Position numbers and translations under genes: made by a program
Part shown: piece by piece, positions 24,633 through 32,697 of the stretch
How the letters are laid out: the number at the start of each line of letters is the position of its first letter
How positions within the stretch are numbered: position 1 is the stretch's first letter
Assembly (NCBI RefSeq): GCF_016921115.1
Contig: NZ_JAFFZS010000009.1
Location: 62,001-126,000, forward strand
Source of the DNA: Streptomyces actuosus
GTDB taxonomy: Bacteria > Actinomycetota > Actinomycetes > Streptomycetales > Streptomycetaceae
Direction of reading: 5' to 3'
Length of the DNA: 64,000 nucleotides
Notes under the pieces: generated by a model
Told to the model about the DNA's origin: nothing
The model's database searches: none
The model's input: the letters and a program-made list of their open reading frames with translations, nothing else

Positions 24633-25335
24633 TCACTCGTCGAAGGCTGAACCCGCCAGCTTCTCGCCGACCGCCTCCCCGATCAGCCTGAGGGCCTCCG
24701 GCCCCATCAGCTCGTCGTGCGTGCCAGCTCGCGGACGTCCATCTTCTCGGTGACGTACGGCGTCCACAGCTCGACTTCCGGCGCGGACTGGGGGCGTCCT
24801 CGTACCGCCCTGACAAACAGCACCTCTCCGTCGAAGCTGCCAGGAGCGTGCTCGCTGTCGATCACCATGTTGTTACGGGTCACCCGGCCCACCCTCGCCA
24901 GTGTCTCGGCGTCGAAGTTCCCGAACAGCCCGCCCTGCTGGCCGAGGAGTTCCGCGGTGCTGCTCGCGGTCAGCGGACCTGCGGCCGGGTCGGACTCGGC
25001 TCCGGCGTACTTCAACAGCTCACCGAACAACTGCTCGTCCGATGGCACCGTGGACGTCTCGCCGCGCTGGGCCGGGTAGGAGTCGAGCATGGCGAGCAGC
25101 TCCACTCCTCGCCCGCCTTCCGCAGCTGTACGGCCATGGCGTGCGCGACGACTCCGCCGAACGACCAGCCGAGCAGGTGGTAGGGCCCCGATGGCTGCAC
25201 CTCGCGGATGCGGGCCACGTAGTCGGCCGCCATGTCCTCCAGCCTCCGCGGCAGCTCCTTGTCGCCGCCCATCCCGCGCGCCTGCAGCGCATAGACCGGG
25301 TGCTCGGCCGAGATCTCGTGCAGCAGTCCGGCGTA
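24633..25335 (-). pseudogene. Remnant of an NRPS-type thioesterase domain or gene, two frameshifts
   Basis: Reading leftward from the insertion sequence, one frame gives YAGLLHEISAEHPVYALQAR and GPYHLLGWSFGGVVAHAMA, which is the nucleophile elbow (GWSFGG) of an NRPS/PKS type I thioesterase. Near 25105 the frame shifts by one base (apparently a lost G), and the next frame continues with ELLAMLDSYPAQRG through LWTPYVTEKMDVRELA. A second shift near 24720 would restore HDELMGPEALRLIGEAVGEK and a stop at 24633. The N-terminal part (oxyanion region) is absent because sequence to the right is the IS. It is therefore the dead 3' end of a biosynthetic gene, with its terminator retained. Confidence 0.8.
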
Positions 25336-26441
25336 TTGATCCGAAACGGTTTGGGTTCTGGGTCGTTGGTGGGGTGTGAGCGATCTGGTGGGGGACGCGC
25401 GGCATCTGTCGCCGTCGGCGCAGGAGGCCCTGCGACTACGGGCGGTGGCCGCGTTGGTGGCGGGCCGGGACCGTGAAGACGTGGCGGCAGTCTTCGGCGT
25501 GTCGCTGAAGGCCGTCGACAAGTGGTGGGCGAAGTGGCAGGCCGGCGGCCGGGAGGCGCTGGTCATGCGCCCGCGGGGCAGGCCGGTCGGGGTGCACCAG
25601 GTGCTCGGGGAGGCCGAGCAGGCCGCCCTGCGGCAGGCGGTCCTCGACCACCGCCCCTGTGACATGGGCTTGAGCGGGCAGCTGTGGACGCGGCGGCTGA
25701 TCGGTGACCTGATCGCGAAGCTGTACCGGGTGCGGCTGACCGAACCGGGGGTGGGCACGTACCTGAAGCGCTGGGGGCTGTCCTTCCAGCGCCCGGACAA
25801 ACGGGCCGTCGAACAGGCCCCCGAGGCCGTCCGGCGCTGGCACCAGGAGACCTGGCCGAAGATCCGCGCGAAGGCGAAGGCCGACGGCGGTGAGATCCTC
25901 TTCGCCGACCAGGTCGGCATCCGATCCGACCAGGTCACCGGCCGCACCTGGGGAGAGAAGGGGAGGACGCCCGTGGTGCGGCGGAGCGGGAACCGGTTCT
26001 CGGTGAACGCGATGTCGGCGATCAGCACCAAGGGCCGGATGCACTTCATGGTCTTCACCGAGAGCTTCACCGCGGAGGTGATGTGCCGCTTCCTCGGCCG
26101 GCTGGCCGGCCACTTCGACCACAAGGTCCACCTCGTCGTCGACGGACACTCCGCCCACCGGTCCAAGAAGGTGCGCGGCTGGCTCGCCGCCCACCCCGAC
26201 GACGTCGAGCTGCACTTCCTGCCGCCGTACTCGCCCGAGCTGAACCCCGACGAGCTGGTCAACGCCGACCTCAAGCACAGCCTGCCCCGGCAGCACCGAG
26301 CCCGCGACCAAGTCGAACTCGCCGCCGAGACCCGCCGCTTCTTCCGCCGACGCCAGCGCCAGCCACACATCGTCCGCGGCTACTTCGGCGGCCCACACGT
26401 CCGCTACGTCCTGGACGAGAACCCCATGAGTTTCTGATCAA
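25336..26441. mobile_element. IS630-family insertion sequence
   Basis: 1,106-bp element. Imperfect terminal inverted repeats begin ttgatc at the left and end gatcaa at the right; inward, both share gaaac, then ggttct. TA dinucleotides flank both ends (25334-25335 and 26442-26443), as expected for IS630/Tc1 target duplication. It holds one transposase gene whose stop codon lies inside the right repeat. The element looks intact and potentially active. Confidence 0.9.
25376..26437 (+). CDS. IS630-family transposase
   Basis: 353 aa. The N-terminal helix-turn-helix (about 12-60) includes DVAAVFGVSLKAVDKWWAKW and a second winged-helix region. The DDE catalytic core has Asp178 (EILFADQVGI), Asp256 (HLVVDGHSAH) and Glu293 (PELNPDELVN). 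It cuts and pastes the element into TA sites. The gene is full length and uninterrupted, with GTG or ATG start choices within the left repeat region. Confidence 0.95.
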   Translation: MSDLVGDARHLSPSAQEALRLRAVAALVAGRDREDVAAVFGVSLKAVDKWWAKWQAGGREALVMRPRGRPVGVHQVLGEAEQAALRQAVLDHRPCDMGLSGQLWTRRLIGDLIAKLYRVRLTEPGVGTYLKRWGLSFQRPDKRAVEQAPEAVRRWHQETWPKIRAKAKADGGEILFADQVGIRSDQVTGRTWGEKGRTPVVRRSGNRFSVNAMSAISTKGRMHFMVFTESFTAEVMCRFLGRLAGHFDHKVHLVVDGHSAHRSKKVRGWLAAHPDDVELHFLPPYSPELNPDELVNADLKHSLPRQHRARDQVELAAETRRFFRRRQRQPHIVRGYFGGPHVRYVLDENPMSF

Positions 26442-26498
26442 TATATACATGCCAAGGAGTTCGTGCAGATGCGTCTGCGCGGAGGGTCCTGCTGCCGC

Positions 26499-27029
26499 TC
26501 AGCGGTGCCCGAGCACCCCTTGCAGCGCGGGAGCTGAGGTGGTGCGCCGCCGGTAATACGCGATCGCCGACACCGCGAGGAGCGGAGCCCAGGCAAGCAG
26601 CGGGGTGTAGCAGACGGCGAGGAAGACCGTCTGGGCCCTGGTGTCCGTGAGAACGCCGTCCGCCAGATTGCCCCCCTGAACGAAGCCGACCAGAAGGCTC
26701 AGAGCGAAGAGCACGAACGACCCGACGAGCGCCGGGACCACCGCCGCGAGCGGACGCACCGGCCGGCCGCCGATCAGCGGGATCCAGCGCGGCACGACCT
26801 CACCCCACGGCTGCACCAGGCCGAGTGTCAGCAGGGCAAGCCCCTCCGTGACCGCCGTCAGAACCAGGACGTACGCCACGCCCCAGCCCGTGTGTAACGG
26901 CTGCGATGTCACCGGGAGCCCGGCGGCCAGGGCGAGCCGCCACAGGCTCGAGGGCAAGGTGAGCAGCGGTACGGCGTAGGCGGTGCGGACTGCCCAGCGC
27001 GGTACGCCCGAAGCTGTGTTCTTAAGCAT
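26499..27029 (-). CDS. Small integral membrane protein of unknown function
   Basis: 176 aa from ATG 27029 (MLKNTASGVPRW); a start at 27065 adds 12 residues. Four hydrophobic segments are visible, at about WAVRTAYAVPLLTLPSSLW, AYVLVLTAVTEGLALLTLGL, VVPALVGSFVLFALSLLVGF and FLAVCYTPLLAWAPLLAVSA. No motif is recognised. It lies between the IS and the chimeric gene, in the decayed cluster region; its frame is intact. Confidence 0.7.
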   Translation of the reverse strand: MLKNTASGVPRWAVRTAYAVPLLTLPSSLWRLALAAGLPVTSQPLHTGWGVAYVLVLTAVTEGLALLTLGLVQPWGEVVPRWIPLIGGRPVRPLAAVVPALVGSFVLFALSLLVGFVQGGNLADGVLTDTRAQTVFLAVCYTPLLAWAPLLAVSAIAYYRRRTTSAPALQGVLGHR

Positions 27030-27125
27030 GTGATCCACTTTCGTCCCTGCGGCGCCGCCGCGCATCAGCCTGTGGGTTCATCCGTCTCCCCCGTGCGAGG
27101 GAGACGGACCGACACCCCTGGACCG

Positions 27126-28367
27126 TCACGTCGGCTGGTTTCCGTGCTTGCGCACCGGCAGTGGGGCGTGCTTCTCGCGCAGCATCGCGAGCGCGTCGAT
27201 CAGCACCTCGCGGGTCTCGGCGGGGTCGATGACGTCGTCGACCAGACCGCCCTCGGCGGCGTAGTAGGGGTGCATCAGCTCGGCCTTGTACTCCTTGACC
27301 AGCAGAGCACGGGTCGTCTCGGGGTTGTCCGAGGCGTTGATCTGCCGCCGGAAGACCACGTTCGCCGCGCCCTCGGCGCCCATCACCGCGATCTCGTTGG
27401 TGGGCCAGGCGTAGCAGAAGTCGGCGCCGATCGAGCGCGAGTCCATGACGATGTACGCGCCGCCGTACGCCTTGCGCAGAATCACCGAGATCCGCAGCAC
27501 GGTGGCGTTGCAGTACGCGTAGAGAAGCTTGGCGCCGTGCCGGATGATGCCGCCGTGTTCCTGGTCGTCAGCGCGGGCGAGCAGGACGGGCAAGCAGGCC
27601 ACCCCCACCGCGAGGTCCTTGCCCTGTTCCTTTCCGCTCAGCCCGGACGACGAGGTGATGTCGAGCAGGTCGTCGGCGATCTGGAACGCCACGCCGAGGT
27701 GTTCTCCGTACTCCGCGAGCGCGTCGGCCACGGCGGTGGGCGCCCCGGCCTGGAGCGCGCCGAGCCGCAGCGCGAGGGATATCAGTGCCGCCGACTTGTC
27801 GGAGACCACGCTGAAGTAGTGGACGAGCGGGTCGTCGTCCCCGCCCGGGCCGAGCAGCTCCCGCATCTGGCCCCGCACCAGTCGTGCGGAAGCCTCGGCA
27901 TGCAGCGCAAGGGTCTGTGCCACAAGGTCGGCGCAGAGCCGGGCGGACGTGGCGAGCAGCCAGTTGCCCGCCATGACGGCGACGGAGTTGCCCCAGCGCG
28001 CGTTGACGCTGGGCACTCCGTGCCGGATGCGGGCCTGGTCCATCACGTCGTCGTGGTAGAGCGAGGCGGCGTGGACCAGCTCACAGATCACGGCGGCGTC
28101 CGCAACACCCGGAGCCCCGGGTTCCGCGAACTCGGCTGCCACCAGGGTGAGCAGCGGGCGCAGCCTCTTGCCGCCCGCCGCGACGAGATAGCCGACCATC
28201 TCGGTCACACGCGGGTCGGCCGCCCCCGCGGCACACTCCCGGAGCCGCTCTTCCACCCGTTCGAGGCCGGCGGCAAGGCTGGATTCCAGCTCGTCCTCAC
28301 CTACGGCGATCCGGGAAAGCACCGAACGGCCGCGCTCCTGAGCGACCAGTGTGGCCACCTGCGACAT
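27126..28367 (-). CDS. Chimeric gene: polyprenyl synthase N-terminus fused to acyl-CoA carboxylase beta C-terminus
   Basis: 413 aa from ATG 28367 with GGGGAGGGG upstream. Residues 1-265 are an isoprenyl diphosphate synthase: GGKRLRP, the first Asp-rich motif HDDVMD (about 105-110), GQMRE, and the second Asp-rich motif DDLLD (232-236), ending at LPVLLARA. From residue 268 (DQEHGGIIRHGAK) the protein is instead the C-terminal 145 residues of a propionyl/acetyl-CoA carboxylase carboxyltransferase, including RKAYGGAYIVMDS, YAWPTNEIAVMGAEGAANV and GLVDDVIDPAETREVL. The junction is in frame near 27565. The synthase lacks its last 50 or so residues and the carboxylase lacks its CoA-binding half. Prenyl transfer might survive; carboxylase activity is unlikely. 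It probably arose by deletion. Confidence 0.88.
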   Translation of the reverse strand: MSQVATLVAQERGRSVLSRIAVGEDELESSLAAGLERVEERLRECAAGAADPRVTEMVGYLVAAGGKRLRPLLTLVAAEFAEPGAPGVADAAVICELVHAASLYHDDVMDQARIRHGVPSVNARWGNSVAVMAGNWLLATSARLCADLVAQTLALHAEASARLVRGQMRELLGPGGDDDPLVHYFSVVSDKSAALISLALRLGALQAGAPTAVADALAEYGEHLGVAFQIADDLLDITSSSGLSGKEQGKDLAVGVACLPVLLARADDQEHGGIIRHGAKLLYAYCNATVLRISVILRKAYGGAYIVMDSRSIGADFCYAWPTNEIAVMGAEGAANVVFRRQINASDNPETTRALLVKEYKAELMHPYYAAEGGLVDDVIDPAETREVLIDALAMLREKHAPLPVRKHGNQPT

Positions 28368-28786
28368 CTGCCCCTCCCCCCGGGCACGTCTGCGTCGTCA
28401 CGGCCCACCACGCCGAACGGTAGGAAGGGGACGCCCGGGCAGGACAGGGAATCCACCTCGACTGTCCGCAAGAGGACAGCGAGGGAATGTCCAGCAGGCG
28501 CACGGCCCTCGGTTCGGGCGACATTCCGCCGGAAGTTCCACTCCGGCTGTCACCAACGTGTCGACCAGCCCGCTCGGAGCCTGTGATTCCGGGTCGGCGC
28601 GGGAGACTTGGTGAGCAGCGCTCGAATCCCGGCCACGATTCGAGCGGCGTGCCCGCGTGCCGCTGGGGGCCATGCGCTGCCTCCCACCCCGCGTTGAGTC
28701 GCGCCGTCCGGTCACCGGGCGGCCATAGGTGCTGCCATGCCGCAGACCTGCGGCCGCGCACCACCATCCCTTTCCAAAGGAGCGTC
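28368..28786. other. Divergent intergenic region, 419 bp
   Basis: This gap separates the chimeric gene (left) and the MMPL gene (right). No gene is supportable. Both promoters should lie here. An AAAGGAG ribosome site for the MMPL gene ends at 28782. Confidence 0.45.
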
Positions 28787-30964
28787 GTGTTCGGACGGAT
28801 AGGACGGTTCACCGTCAACCGGCCTTGGCTGGTCATCTTGGCCTGGATACTTGCCACGGTCGCACTGGCCACCCTGGCTCCCACGCTGAAGTCCAGTACG
28901 GACCAAGCCGACTTCCTGCCCTCCCGGTACGAGTCGGTCCAGGTCACCAAGATCCAGGAAAAGGCGTTTCCGCAGCAGGAGACCCCCGCTGCCGTGGTGG
29001 TCTTCCAGCGGACCGACGGCCGCAAGCTGACGGCCGCCGACAAGGCCACCGTCACCAAGGTGGCCAAGGAGTTCCAGGCGAAGCGGTACGAGACCTTCGA
29101 CAAGGTCCTGAACTCGCCCGAGTCGGTGTCCAAGGACGGCAGAATGGCGCTCGCGAGCGTCGTCTCCGCCGAGAAGGACCCGGCCACCGAGAAAGGCCAG
29201 GAGTCGGTCCGCAAGCTCCGCGCGGACGGCAAGGAGCAGCTCCGGGGCAGCGGGCTGAAGATGGGGGTCACCGGCCCCACGGCCCTGGCGCTCGACGCCA
29301 AAGAGGCGGCCGGGAACACCGACGCCATGATCATGATGGCCACGCTGCTCCTGATCATCGTCCTGCTCGGGGTCATCTTCCGCAGCCCGCTCATCGCGCT
29401 GCTGCCGGTCCTCACCATCGCGCTGACGTTCATCGTGGCCAACGGCCTGATCGCCACCGCCAGCGAACTCTTCGGCCTCGAGGCGGACAGCAGCAACTCC
29501 GCGATCCTGATCGTGGTCCTCTTCGGTGTCGGAACCGACTACATCCTGTTCCTGCTGTTCCGGTACCGGGAGCACCTGCGCGAGGGGCGCGAGCCCAAGC
29601 GGGCCCTCATCGACTCCGTCTCGCGAGTCGGAGAGACCATTGCCTCCGCCGCGGGCGCGGTGATCGTCGCCTTCCTGGCCCTGCTGTTCTCCACCATGGG
29701 CAACCTGCGCGCGATGGGCCCGTCCCTCGCGATCTCCGTCGCTGTCACCCTGGTCGCGGCACTCACCCTGGTGCCCGCGGTCTTCTCCCTCCTCGGTACG
29801 AAGGCGTTCTGGCCGTCCAAAGCATGGCAGCGGGCCTCGAAGAACCGTCTGGCCAGCAATGTCGGCACCTTCGCCTCCCAGCGACCCGGCCTGGTCGCCA
29901 CCGTCTCCACGGGCCTGCTCGCCGTGCTCGCCATCGGGGCACTCGGTTTCAAGCCCGGCTTCGACCAGGAGAGCACACTTCCCAAGTCCCTGGAGTCGAT
30001 CCGGACCAACGCGGATCTGCAGAAGAGCTTCTCAGCGGGCGAGACCGAGCCGAGCCTGGTGTTCGTCACATCGCGTCAGGGCACGCCGCTCGACAAGGCC
30101 GCCCTCGACTCGTTCCGGCGGTCCGTCGCCAAGGTGTCCGGCGTCGGCGAGGTCTCCCCGGCCCGCCTGAGCTCCAAGGGCGACGTCGCCCAATACCACG
30201 TGGTGCTGAAGTTCCGGCCCTCCTCCGACCAGGCCATCAACCTGGTCGCCGGCGCCCTCAGGGACACCGTGCACAAGAACGCGCCCGAGGGTACGAAGGC
30301 GCTGGTGGGCGGAAAGACCGCGGTCCTCGCCGACATCGAGGACGCCGTCGAGCACGACTACAGGCTGGTCTTCCCGATCGCCGCGCTCGCCATCCTGCTC
30401 ATCCTGGGGCTGCTGCTGCGCAGCGTCGTCGCCCCGCTCTACCTGATGCTCGCGGTCGGCCTCGGCTTCGCCGCCACGCTGGGCTCGGCGGTCTTTCTCT
30501 TCCAGAACGTCAAGGGCGAGCAGGGGCTGCTGTTCTCGCTGCCCATCGTGGTGTACCTCTTCGTCGTCGCCATCGGAACCGACTACAACATCCTCATGGT
30601 GGCGCGGCTGCGCGAGGAGGTACTCAACGGGAAGTCCACGGCCGAGTCCGTACGTCTCGCCGTCTCCCAGTCGGCCCCGACGATCGGATCCGCCGCCGTC
30701 ATCCTGGCGGGCACCTTCGGTGTCCTGATGCTGGCGGACAACTCGATGCTGCAAGAGATGGGCTTCGCGGTGGCGTTCGGCATCCTGCTGACCGCCTTCG
30801 TCATGGCGCTGCTCCTGGTGCCGACACTAACCGGGCTGATCGGCCCGAAGGCGTGGTGGCCCCGGAACCGGTCCGGGCAGCACCCCGGCCACCCCGAGCA
30901 GTCCCTCGCCGGGCCTCGCCAGGAGGAGCAGGAGCCGGTGACAACCACCCCGGGCCGCTCCTGA
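28787..30964 (+). CDS. MMPL-family (RND superfamily) exporter
   Basis: 725 aa from GTG 28787 with AAAGGAG five bases upstream. Typical MMPL layout: a first helix (PWLVILAWILATVALATLAP), an extracytoplasmic domain, a five-helix bundle with GVGTDYILFLLFRYREHLRE, a second extracytoplasmic domain, and a second bundle with VVAIGTDYNILMVARLREEV. The Asp-Tyr pairs in GTDY are the conserved proton-relay residues. Actinobacterial members such as ActII-3 export antibiotics or lipids. Here no biosynthetic genes survive next to it, so the substrate is unknown. A hairpin terminator follows. Confidence 0.93.
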   Translation: MFGRIGRFTVNRPWLVILAWILATVALATLAPTLKSSTDQADFLPSRYESVQVTKIQEKAFPQQETPAAVVVFQRTDGRKLTAADKATVTKVAKEFQAKRYETFDKVLNSPESVSKDGRMALASVVSAEKDPATEKGQESVRKLRADGKEQLRGSGLKMGVTGPTALALDAKEAAGNTDAMIMMATLLLIIVLLGVIFRSPLIALLPVLTIALTFIVANGLIATASELFGLEADSSNSAILIVVLFGVGTDYILFLLFRYREHLREGREPKRALIDSVSRVGETIASAAGAVIVAFLALLFSTMGNLRAMGPSLAISVAVTLVAALTLVPAVFSLLGTKAFWPSKAWQRASKNRLASNVGTFASQRPGLVATVSTGLLAVLAIGALGFKPGFDQESTLPKSLESIRTNADLQKSFSAGETEPSLVFVTSRQGTPLDKAALDSFRRSVAKVSGVGEVSPARLSSKGDVAQYHVVLKFRPSSDQAINLVAGALRDTVHKNAPEGTKALVGGKTAVLADIEDAVEHDYRLVFPIAALAILLILGLLLRSVVAPLYLMLAVGLGFAATLGSAVFLFQNVKGEQGLLFSLPIVVYLFVVAIGTDYNILMVARLREEVLNGKSTAESVRLAVSQSAPTIGSAAVILAGTFGVLMLADNSMLQEMGFAVAFGILLTAFVMALLLVPTLTGLIGPKAWWPRNRSGQHPGHPEQSLAGPRQEEQEPVTTTPGRS

Positions 30965-31259: not shown

Positions 31260-31865
31260 ATGAGAGCGATGTACCACCGGTGGCTGCCGTCCGGCCCCCC
31301 ATACCAGGCGAGGCCCACCGATCGTGGTGCCTCCTCCGGAAGTTCGGACGGCGGCGAGCGAGCGCGGGCCATGGGACCGGCCCTGGAGAGGCGCTCCGAG
31401 GTGCGACAACGGCATGTTGCCGACGGCCTGTTGGACACGTCGGACGCACTGGGCGACGAGCTGTCACGCAACCGTGAGCACAGCGGTCAGGCGTCCGTCA
31501 CCCGGGTGGCAACGACTGACGCCGGGACGTTCGTGATCGTGGACGGCAGTGTCCCGTGCGTCCCCGCCCACGGCCCCGCCGGGGTGCGCCGCCCGGCCGT
31601 GGTGCGCGTCCTCGAGTCCCTGTTCGCCGGCGCATGGACGGCGGCCGTGCCGTCGGCGGACCGCAACAGGCTGCGGCACCGCACGCGCAGCGGGATGACC
31701 CCCGGTGTCCTGCGCCGACTCGGCGCGAGGCTCGCGGACGACGCCGGGGGCCGGGGGACGAGTGTCTCCCTGCACACCTACCGGCGACATGTGGCCCAGG
31801 TCATCGTGGCGTTGAAGATGGATGCGCGGGCCGTCGCGCTGGACCCGACGCCCGGTCACAGGTGA
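31260..31865 (+). CDS. Degenerate LuxR-type regulator (N-terminal half missing)
   Basis: About 201 aa from ATG 31260, with AAAGGA upstream. From residue 80 it aligns by eye with the next gene: VATTDAGTFVIVDGSVP parallels VPLIDCVVVDGRS, then VLESLFAGAWTAAVP parallels ALHSLFIAVWRGATP, and SLHTYRRHVAQVIVAL parallels SVRTYRCHVAEITASL. The recognition helix survives but the preceding helix is disrupted (ADDAGGRGTS), and the first part is low-complexity Arg/Ser/Gly. It is probably a decaying paralogue; whether it still binds DNA is doubtful. It ends 34 bp before the next start. Confidence 0.6.
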   Translation: MRAMYHRWLPSGPPYQARPTDRGASSGSSDGGERARAMGPALERRSEVRQRHVADGLLDTSDALGDELSRNREHSGQASVTRVATTDAGTFVIVDGSVPCVPAHGPAGVRRPAVVRVLESLFAGAWTAAVPSADRNRLRHRTRSGMTPGVLRRLGARLADDAGGRGTSVSLHTYRRHVAQVIVALKMDARAVALDPTPGHR

Positions 31866-31899
31866 TGCGCTCGTGGACATCGATGCAGGGGAAGAACAT

Positions 31900-32697
31900 A
31901 TGGGGCCTGCCCGGGGCGAGAATCGTATGCACTCCCGGACCAGGAGAGACGACATCGCCCGGATCCTCCTCGACATGAGTTCCCTGATCGAGGACACCGT
32001 GGCCCTGCCCAGGGGCCAGAGAGCCGAGGAGCCATGGGCACTACCGGCGGAACCGGACGAGGCGTCGGTCATGGCGGCCATCGGGGAACAGATCCGCCAG
32101 GCGCGGCAGTCGGTGGACATCTGCCTCGCCGGGCACACCACCCGTGCTCACCGGTTCGTCGAGATCCTGCGGGCACGGGACGAAACGGTCCGGGTACGGC
32201 TCGCCCGCTCCTGGCCCGGACTGGACGGAGTCCCGGAGTCTTGGGAGGACCTCGCGGCGAGCGAGCACATCGAGGTCCGGATCGCCCGCGTACCGCTGAT
32301 CGACTGCGTCGTCGTCGACGGCCGGAGCGCTCTGCTGATCGCCGACTCGGCCACCGGAGCACAGGTCTCCCATCACCGGGCCGGCGGTGTGGTCGGGGCG
32401 CTGCACAGCCTGTTCATCGCCGTGTGGCGCGGCGCCACACCGGTGCCGGTCCGTTTCGGCAGGGGCGGTCAGGCCCGCGCCGAGCTCGTGGCGGGGATCC
32501 TCGGCTGTCTGCACGCCGGGATGTCGGACAAGCTGGCGGCCGATGAGCTGTCGTTGTCCGTGCGCACGTATCGGTGCCACGTGGCGGAGATCACGGCGTC
32601 CCTGGGTGCGACCTCCCGTTTTCAGGCGGGTCTGCGCGCGGCCGAACTCGGCCTGCTGCCCACCCCGCTCCCGCGAGCGGCACCCTCGGAGAGCTAG
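31900..32697 (+). CDS. LuxR-family transcriptional regulator
   Basis: 265 aa from ATG 31900, preceded by GGGGAAG. The N-terminal part (about 15-150) resembles the TrmB/phospholipase D-like sensor regions seen in Streptomyces regulators (VMAAIGEQIRQARQSVDICL, VRVRLARSW). The C-terminal LuxR helix-turn-helix (about 195-255) is LHAGMSDKLAADELSLSVRT followed by YRCHVAEITASLGATSRFQA. No receiver domain was seen. It probably controlled genes in the decayed cluster, for example the MMPL exporter. Confidence 0.85.
   Translation: MGPARGENRMHSRTRRDDIARILLDMSSLIEDTVALPRGQRAEEPWALPAEPDEASVMAAIGEQIRQARQSVDICLAGHTTRAHRFVEILRARDETVRVRLARSWPGLDGVPESWEDLAASEHIEVRIARVPLIDCVVVDGRSALLIADSATGAQVSHHRAGGVVGALHSLFIAVWRGATPVPVRFGRGGQARAELVAGILGCLHAGMSDKLAADELSLSVRTYRCHVAEITASLGATSRFQAGLRAAELGLLPTPLPRAAPSES

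Follow-up and report, generated by a model that had tools for sequence, protein, structure and literature searches.

A probable deletion-fusion of adjacent polyprenyl diphosphate synthase and pccB genes in a decaying accessory module of Streptomyces actuosus

The window analysed here, a 64,000-nucleotide stretch of Streptomyces actuosus DNA (bases 62001-126000 of contig 296), contains an open reading frame in which the beginning of a polyprenyl diphosphate synthase runs directly into the end of PccB, an acyl-CoA carboxylase beta subunit. How did two unrelated coding sequences come to share one frame, and does the product represent a new enzyme or the remains of two old ones? The ORF (27126..28367, - strand; ORF and Pfam evidence) encodes 413 amino acids, begins with ATG, ends with TGA and has no internal stop; its start is common to the synthases of the two closest sister loci. 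Pfam assigns residues 53-270 to PF00348 (polyprenyl_synt; E 1.9e-54) and residues 267-410 to PF01039 (Carboxyl_trans; E 1.1e-47). The two domains in one stop-free ORF bear out the original prediction of an in-frame chimera with a clean reading frame.

The synthase part covers residues 1-268 (27564..28367, - strand; Pfam and alignment), reaching beyond the limit of 265 first proposed, and shares 86% identity with the intact synthase (350 aa) at the Streptomyces actinomycinicus locus (L016). Its membership of the family is clear from the PF00348 score (185 bits; curated cut-off, 27). Both aspartate-rich motifs, DDVMD (106-110) and DDLLD (232-236), are kept, and their aspartates are invariant in seven intact relatives; the DDxxD aspartates of polyprenyl diphosphate synthases have a catalytic role. 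The best NCBIfam model for this part, NF042417, describes a mycobacterial nonaprenyl/(2E,6E)-farnesyl/geranylgeranyl diphosphate synthase; the score of 226.5 is below the cut-off of 600, as is that of the intact sister (256.5). The C-terminal helices of the all-alpha fold are incomplete, as had been claimed: the match stops at residue 268 of 350, and four helices predicted for the sister synthase (270-279, 287-299, 301-321 and 328-342) lie beyond it.

The PccB part (27126..27566, - strand; Pfam, alignment and trees) comprises residues 268-413, exactly the 146 residues predicted. Identity to the PccB encoded in the operon of locus L123 is 87.6% (over residues 368-512 of that protein), and across the operon copies it ranges from 82 to 85% in DNA and from 82 to 88% in protein. 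The carboxyltransferase domain is far from complete, since only positions 345-492 of the 493-position profile are matched (the full protein of a relative spans 1-492). The original prediction was right that PccB had been truncated but set the loss at its CoA-binding half; more than half is in fact gone, with less than one third (146 of 513 residues) left. The C-terminal endings are alike (KHGNQPT in the window and KHGNQPV in L123, each directly before the stop), and the stop of the chimera is probably that of pccB itself.

The join itself is abrupt. The match to the intact L016 synthase ends at 27564 and that to the PccB of a relative begins at 27566, with residue 268 covered by both, so a junction at about 27565 without filler was correctly predicted. 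In the window the joint reads GACGACCAGGA and has up to five bases in common with parent-like copies of the two genes. Comparison with these copies marks CGACC (27563..27567, - strand) as a candidate microhomology spanning at most 5 bp. The L016 synthase reads GACGACC/CCCGT at the joint (slash) and that of the second sister locus, L128, GAGGATC, while operon pccB reads CGACC/AGGA in three of six copies (L024, L125 and L023), GGACC in L124 and L021, and GGAGC in L123. The joint may thus have been placed on a short repeat common to both parents, if, as we infer, the true parent sequences carried it.

A misassembly, with two loci or a collapsed region wrongly joined, is another reading, and the genome (8.45 Mb) is in 305 contigs. 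Yet the assembly is 99.88% complete, and neither of the missing pieces turns up anywhere else in it. The best match in the genome to the missing N-terminal part of PccB is 80%, within a separate complete pccB gene, and for the missing C-terminal part of the synthase there was no convincing match (lowest E 0.0064); it is this absence that makes an assembly error unlikely. In addition, no more than 5 bp are common at the joint, and both flanks of the window locus match two sister loci. Taken with these observations, an artefact is highly improbable. The genome does encode other members of both families, namely a separate synthase with 50% identity to the first part of the chimera, and pccB genes with 82% and 77% identity to the second.

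A search for the same fusion in other genomes, which the original prediction had called for, found none. Apart from the window's own, there was no such fusion in 199 genomes of the genus (E limit 1e-90; nine first-look candidates scored per listed genome). Of 1018 plasmid records with a match, not one covered 80% of the query, and the 80 best of at least 481 relatives (genome contigs) did not contain the fusion either.

The closest comparisons are the loci of S. actinomycinicus (L016) and of genome G255 (L128), with 90.8% and 90.6% DNA identity to the window, respectively, over the stretch from the synthase to an MMPL-family transporter gene. In the window the MMPL gene (28757..30964, + strand; left limit set by the searched stretch) is divergent from the chimeric ORF, and it is the upstream neighbour in both sister loci as well. 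The sister synthases are intact (350 aa in L016 and 345 aa in L128), and the gene order in both is synthase, small protein gene, sbnB, sbnA. The small protein gene (26502..27065, - strand in the window), which has no Pfam match, thus follows the synthase gene in both. A search with the module proteins found no pccB match in either sister locus, indicating that the pccB of the module is dispensable. Beside the MMPL gene there is also a LuxR-like regulator candidate (31822-32697, + strand; L016 3929-4960), with a GerE match just under the Pfam cut-off and 79-81% DNA identity to the sister loci.

Comparison with L016 alone, where 425 bp of the window stand in place of 236 bp, invites a reading in which the ancestor had only the synthase and small protein genes, and a 3' piece of pccB was copied in over the 3' end of the synthase gene by ectopic replacement or gene conversion. 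Both closest loci have the same flanks as the window and lack pccB, and the L016 gap holds no clear pccB relic, all of which would fit. Against it, the other pccB genes of the genome are only 84% and 81% identical to the piece in DNA, and the best pccB in 392 genomes of the genus reaches only 87%, so that no recent donor was found. The gene order in more distant relatives, the kinship of the piece and the place where it ends also argue against replacement, as set out below, and we consider it unlikely. The insertion of a pccB piece over the synthase end, as read from L016 alone, was dropped as the favoured view because relatives show the synthase-pccB order.

That order was found by searching 26 sequences (the window and 25 loci) with five module proteins. 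In seven loci (L021, L023, L024, L115, L123, L124 and L125) a full-length pccB comes directly after the synthase gene and on its strand; L116 has the same sequence as L021 and hence was not counted separately. The two parents of the chimera are therefore adjacent, on one strand and in the order of the fusion, in these seven loci; the two closest sister loci, which lack pccB, differ. Three of the seven are annotated linear plasmid loci (L123, 7333-12924; L124, 5427-10802; L125, 4660-10802) with an MMPL gene, a divergent synthase gene and genes for the beta and epsilon subunits of acyl-CoA carboxylase. The MMPL gene is present in six of the seven and divergent in five (L023, L024, L123, L124 and L125); in L115 it is downstream of the synthase gene and shares its strand, and it was not found in L021 with the module proteins. 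No pccB was found beside the synthase gene in L016-L020, L022 and L117-L120, or in the short loci L011-L015. Adjacency is thus common among the loci searched, though not universal. Lasso peptide genes occur near the module in L124 and L125.

Trees of 91 pccB C-terminal stretches connect the window piece to such an operon. In both it is the sister of the L123 operon copy (DNA tree, 100/92; protein tree, 97/90). On the DNA tree the piece falls in a five-row clade with four operon copies, L123 and three more (99/92), while on the protein tree the pair of window and L123 sits within a wider mixed clade. The operon copies do not form one group: the operon label requires three changes on each of the two trees, and the L115 operon copy is placed among other pccB genes. 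These placements are to be read with the DNA bootstrap not settled, a short protein alignment and a long L123 branch in DNA. Both the grouping with an operon copy and the end of the piece at the pccB stop speak against a piece copied in from elsewhere.

A trace of that same end may persist in L128. In the gap between the synthase stop and the small protein gene of this locus, a 21-bp stretch aligns with the pccB end of the window, and each of the five usable pccB ends also finds its best match there (16, 15, 14, 13 and 13 of 21 positions). Sequence shuffles did as well in 0, 2, 12, 38 and 128 cases out of 1000 for the respective ends; the same five ends were used for each gap, and the L023 end was left out. 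We regard the stretch as a likely relic of the end of pccB. In the L016 gap the five pccB ends gave no significant match (58 to 275 of 1000 shuffles as good). Short as it is, the L128 stretch suggests that pccB stood at the same site in the common ancestor, at odds with a piece copied into a locus that had never held the gene.

A single deletion between adjacent genes is thus well supported, as had originally been proposed, by the undeleted order in relatives, the position of the piece in the trees, the likely relic in L128 and, more weakly, the possible repeat at the joint. The ancestral locus would have been an accessory module in which the MMPL gene diverged from genes for a long-chain polyprenyl diphosphate synthase, PccB and a small protein, the last three in this order on one strand. 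A short illegitimate deletion, perhaps at the common CGACC, would then have removed about 1.4 kb in all, made up of ~82 codons from the end of the synthase gene, the spacer between the genes and ~367 codons from the start of pccB; in L123 coordinates the missing stretch measures 1425 bp, or 475 codons. Joined in frame by chance, the two ends would have left one 413-aa ORF with the start of the synthase and the stop of pccB, most likely a young fusion pseudogene. We hold this account, of one deletion that fused neighbouring module genes and left such a scar, with high confidence.

Whether the fused ORF still serves a purpose is a separate question. One could imagine a working protein, in which the PccB tail replaces the lost C-terminal helices of the synthase or interferes with either enzyme. 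The ORF is clean and keeps the start of its sisters, and both aspartate-rich motifs are present. A clean frame is no evidence of use, however, as two genes on the same strand will be joined in frame with a chance of one in three. The losses are also severe, with four predicted helices missing from the synthase and 367 of 513 residues from PccB, which makes activity doubtful.

The pattern of substitutions differs between the two parts. In the synthase part, 26 silent and 14 replacing changes are specific to the window, compared with 39 and 44 for both sisters together (L016 only, 21 and 22; L128 only, 18 and 22), a difference towards more constraint in the window (Fisher p 0.083). The neighbouring genes gave 38 silent and 26 replacing changes against 70 and 70 (MMPL, p 0.23), and 13 and 16 against 37 and 35 (small protein, p 0.66). 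The dN/dS to L016 is 0.255 for the synthase part and 0.261 for MMPL. There is no sign of decay in the synthase part, and the absence of surplus replacing changes counts in favour of a working protein.

The PccB part gives a mixed picture, with some signs of lost constraint. One silent and four replacing changes are specific to the window, compared with nine and four for L123. The window's end branch is long in protein for its length in DNA (0.15 and 0.084, respectively; L123, about 0.07 and 0.26); such a surplus of replacing over silent changes suggests lost constraint in this part. At 85-88% DNA identity, the protein identity of the PccB part averages 0.844 (25 pairs), below the usual value for control pairs (mean 0.899, 913 pairs; 5% point 0.855). 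The dN/dS to L123 is 0.147, an unremarkable value given the span of 0.092 to 0.379 among the operon copies themselves. Two near-invariant positions are broken (P24L and R106G; L123 differs at the second too), with a leucine where all 90 other stretches have proline. Controls also break such positions (none in 76 of the 90, one in nine, two in four and seven in one), so that two breaks alone are not striking.

Structure prediction, too, speaks against a working protein. The intact sister synthase was predicted with a mean pLDDT of 84.1 (seven sequences) and the chimera with 50.5 (22 sequences in a shallow alignment). By block, pLDDT is 55-83 for residues 21-230, with lower values towards either end of the synthase part, and 23-57 in the PccB part, where 13 of the 15 ten-residue blocks fall below 40. 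The shallow alignment, with synthase rows that end near the joint, makes the chimera prediction weak evidence. Together with the branch lengths, the leucine for proline and the lack of the same fusion in any other genome searched, it leaves a working protein quite unlikely. There is similarly little probability in its specific forms, in which the PccB tail would cap the shortened synthase and alter product length, or the fusion would interfere with acyl-CoA carboxylase assembly. What favours a young scar is that neither enzyme part is complete, that the genome has further genes of each family and that the pccB of the module is dispensable; the fused ORF most likely represents what is left of two enzymes that were lost, not a new enzyme.

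The surroundings of the ORF may also bear marks of rearrangement. Similarity to the sister loci stops at 26442 (L128) and 26488 (L016), and just beyond lies a DDE_3 transposase gene (25376..26437, + strand), which we take to be of the IS630 type. Adjoining it is a broken, thioesterase-like remnant in two frames (24710..25341, - strand; labelled from reading the sequence), in the place where the sister loci carry sbnB and sbnA. As similarity ends at the transposase gene, this may be where the remainder of an old cluster was lost or rearranged. The sbnB/sbnA homologues (diaminopropionate synthesis) follow the small protein gene at 9944-11981 in L016 and 12709-14743 in L128; the L016 pair scores above the NCBIfam cut-offs, and the window has no match to either gene.

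In sum, the chimera is genuine but unremarkable, a deletion-fusion within an accessory Streptomyces module that is decaying. It offers a clear example of accessory operon decay: three closely related loci have a missing or broken pccB, and one of these owes its state to a deletion that fused two ORFs. It also carries a warning for annotation: named by its domains, the ORF would count as a prenyltransferase and as a carboxylase subunit at once, although neither name is likely to be right. The fusion would gain significance if it were expressed and active.

Compared with a long-chain polyprenyl diphosphate synthase, the chimera can be aligned over residues 1-268, with both aspartate-rich motifs, but lacks the last ~82 residues and has PccB sequence instead. 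Compared with PccB (best solved relative 7w5u, 'Acetyl-CoA carboxylase complex, beta-chain'), it retains the last 146 residues, whereas residues 1-367 of 513 are absent. End joining outside homologous recombination has been reported in Streptomyces, there in the context of induced double-strand breaks and large rearrangements (PMC5869714), whereas the event proposed here is a natural deletion of 1.4 kb. A literature word search found no paper on the undeleted synthase-pccB module, which is recurrent in Streptomyces and is among the closest known systems (e.g., NZ_CP109497.1, 327-333 kb). As in that module, the MMPL and synthase genes of the window are divergent, and the pccB remnant occupies the place of pccB. 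Unlike it, the window has synthase and pccB fused and another gene downstream, and no epsilon subunit gene was found in the window, unlike in L123-L125.
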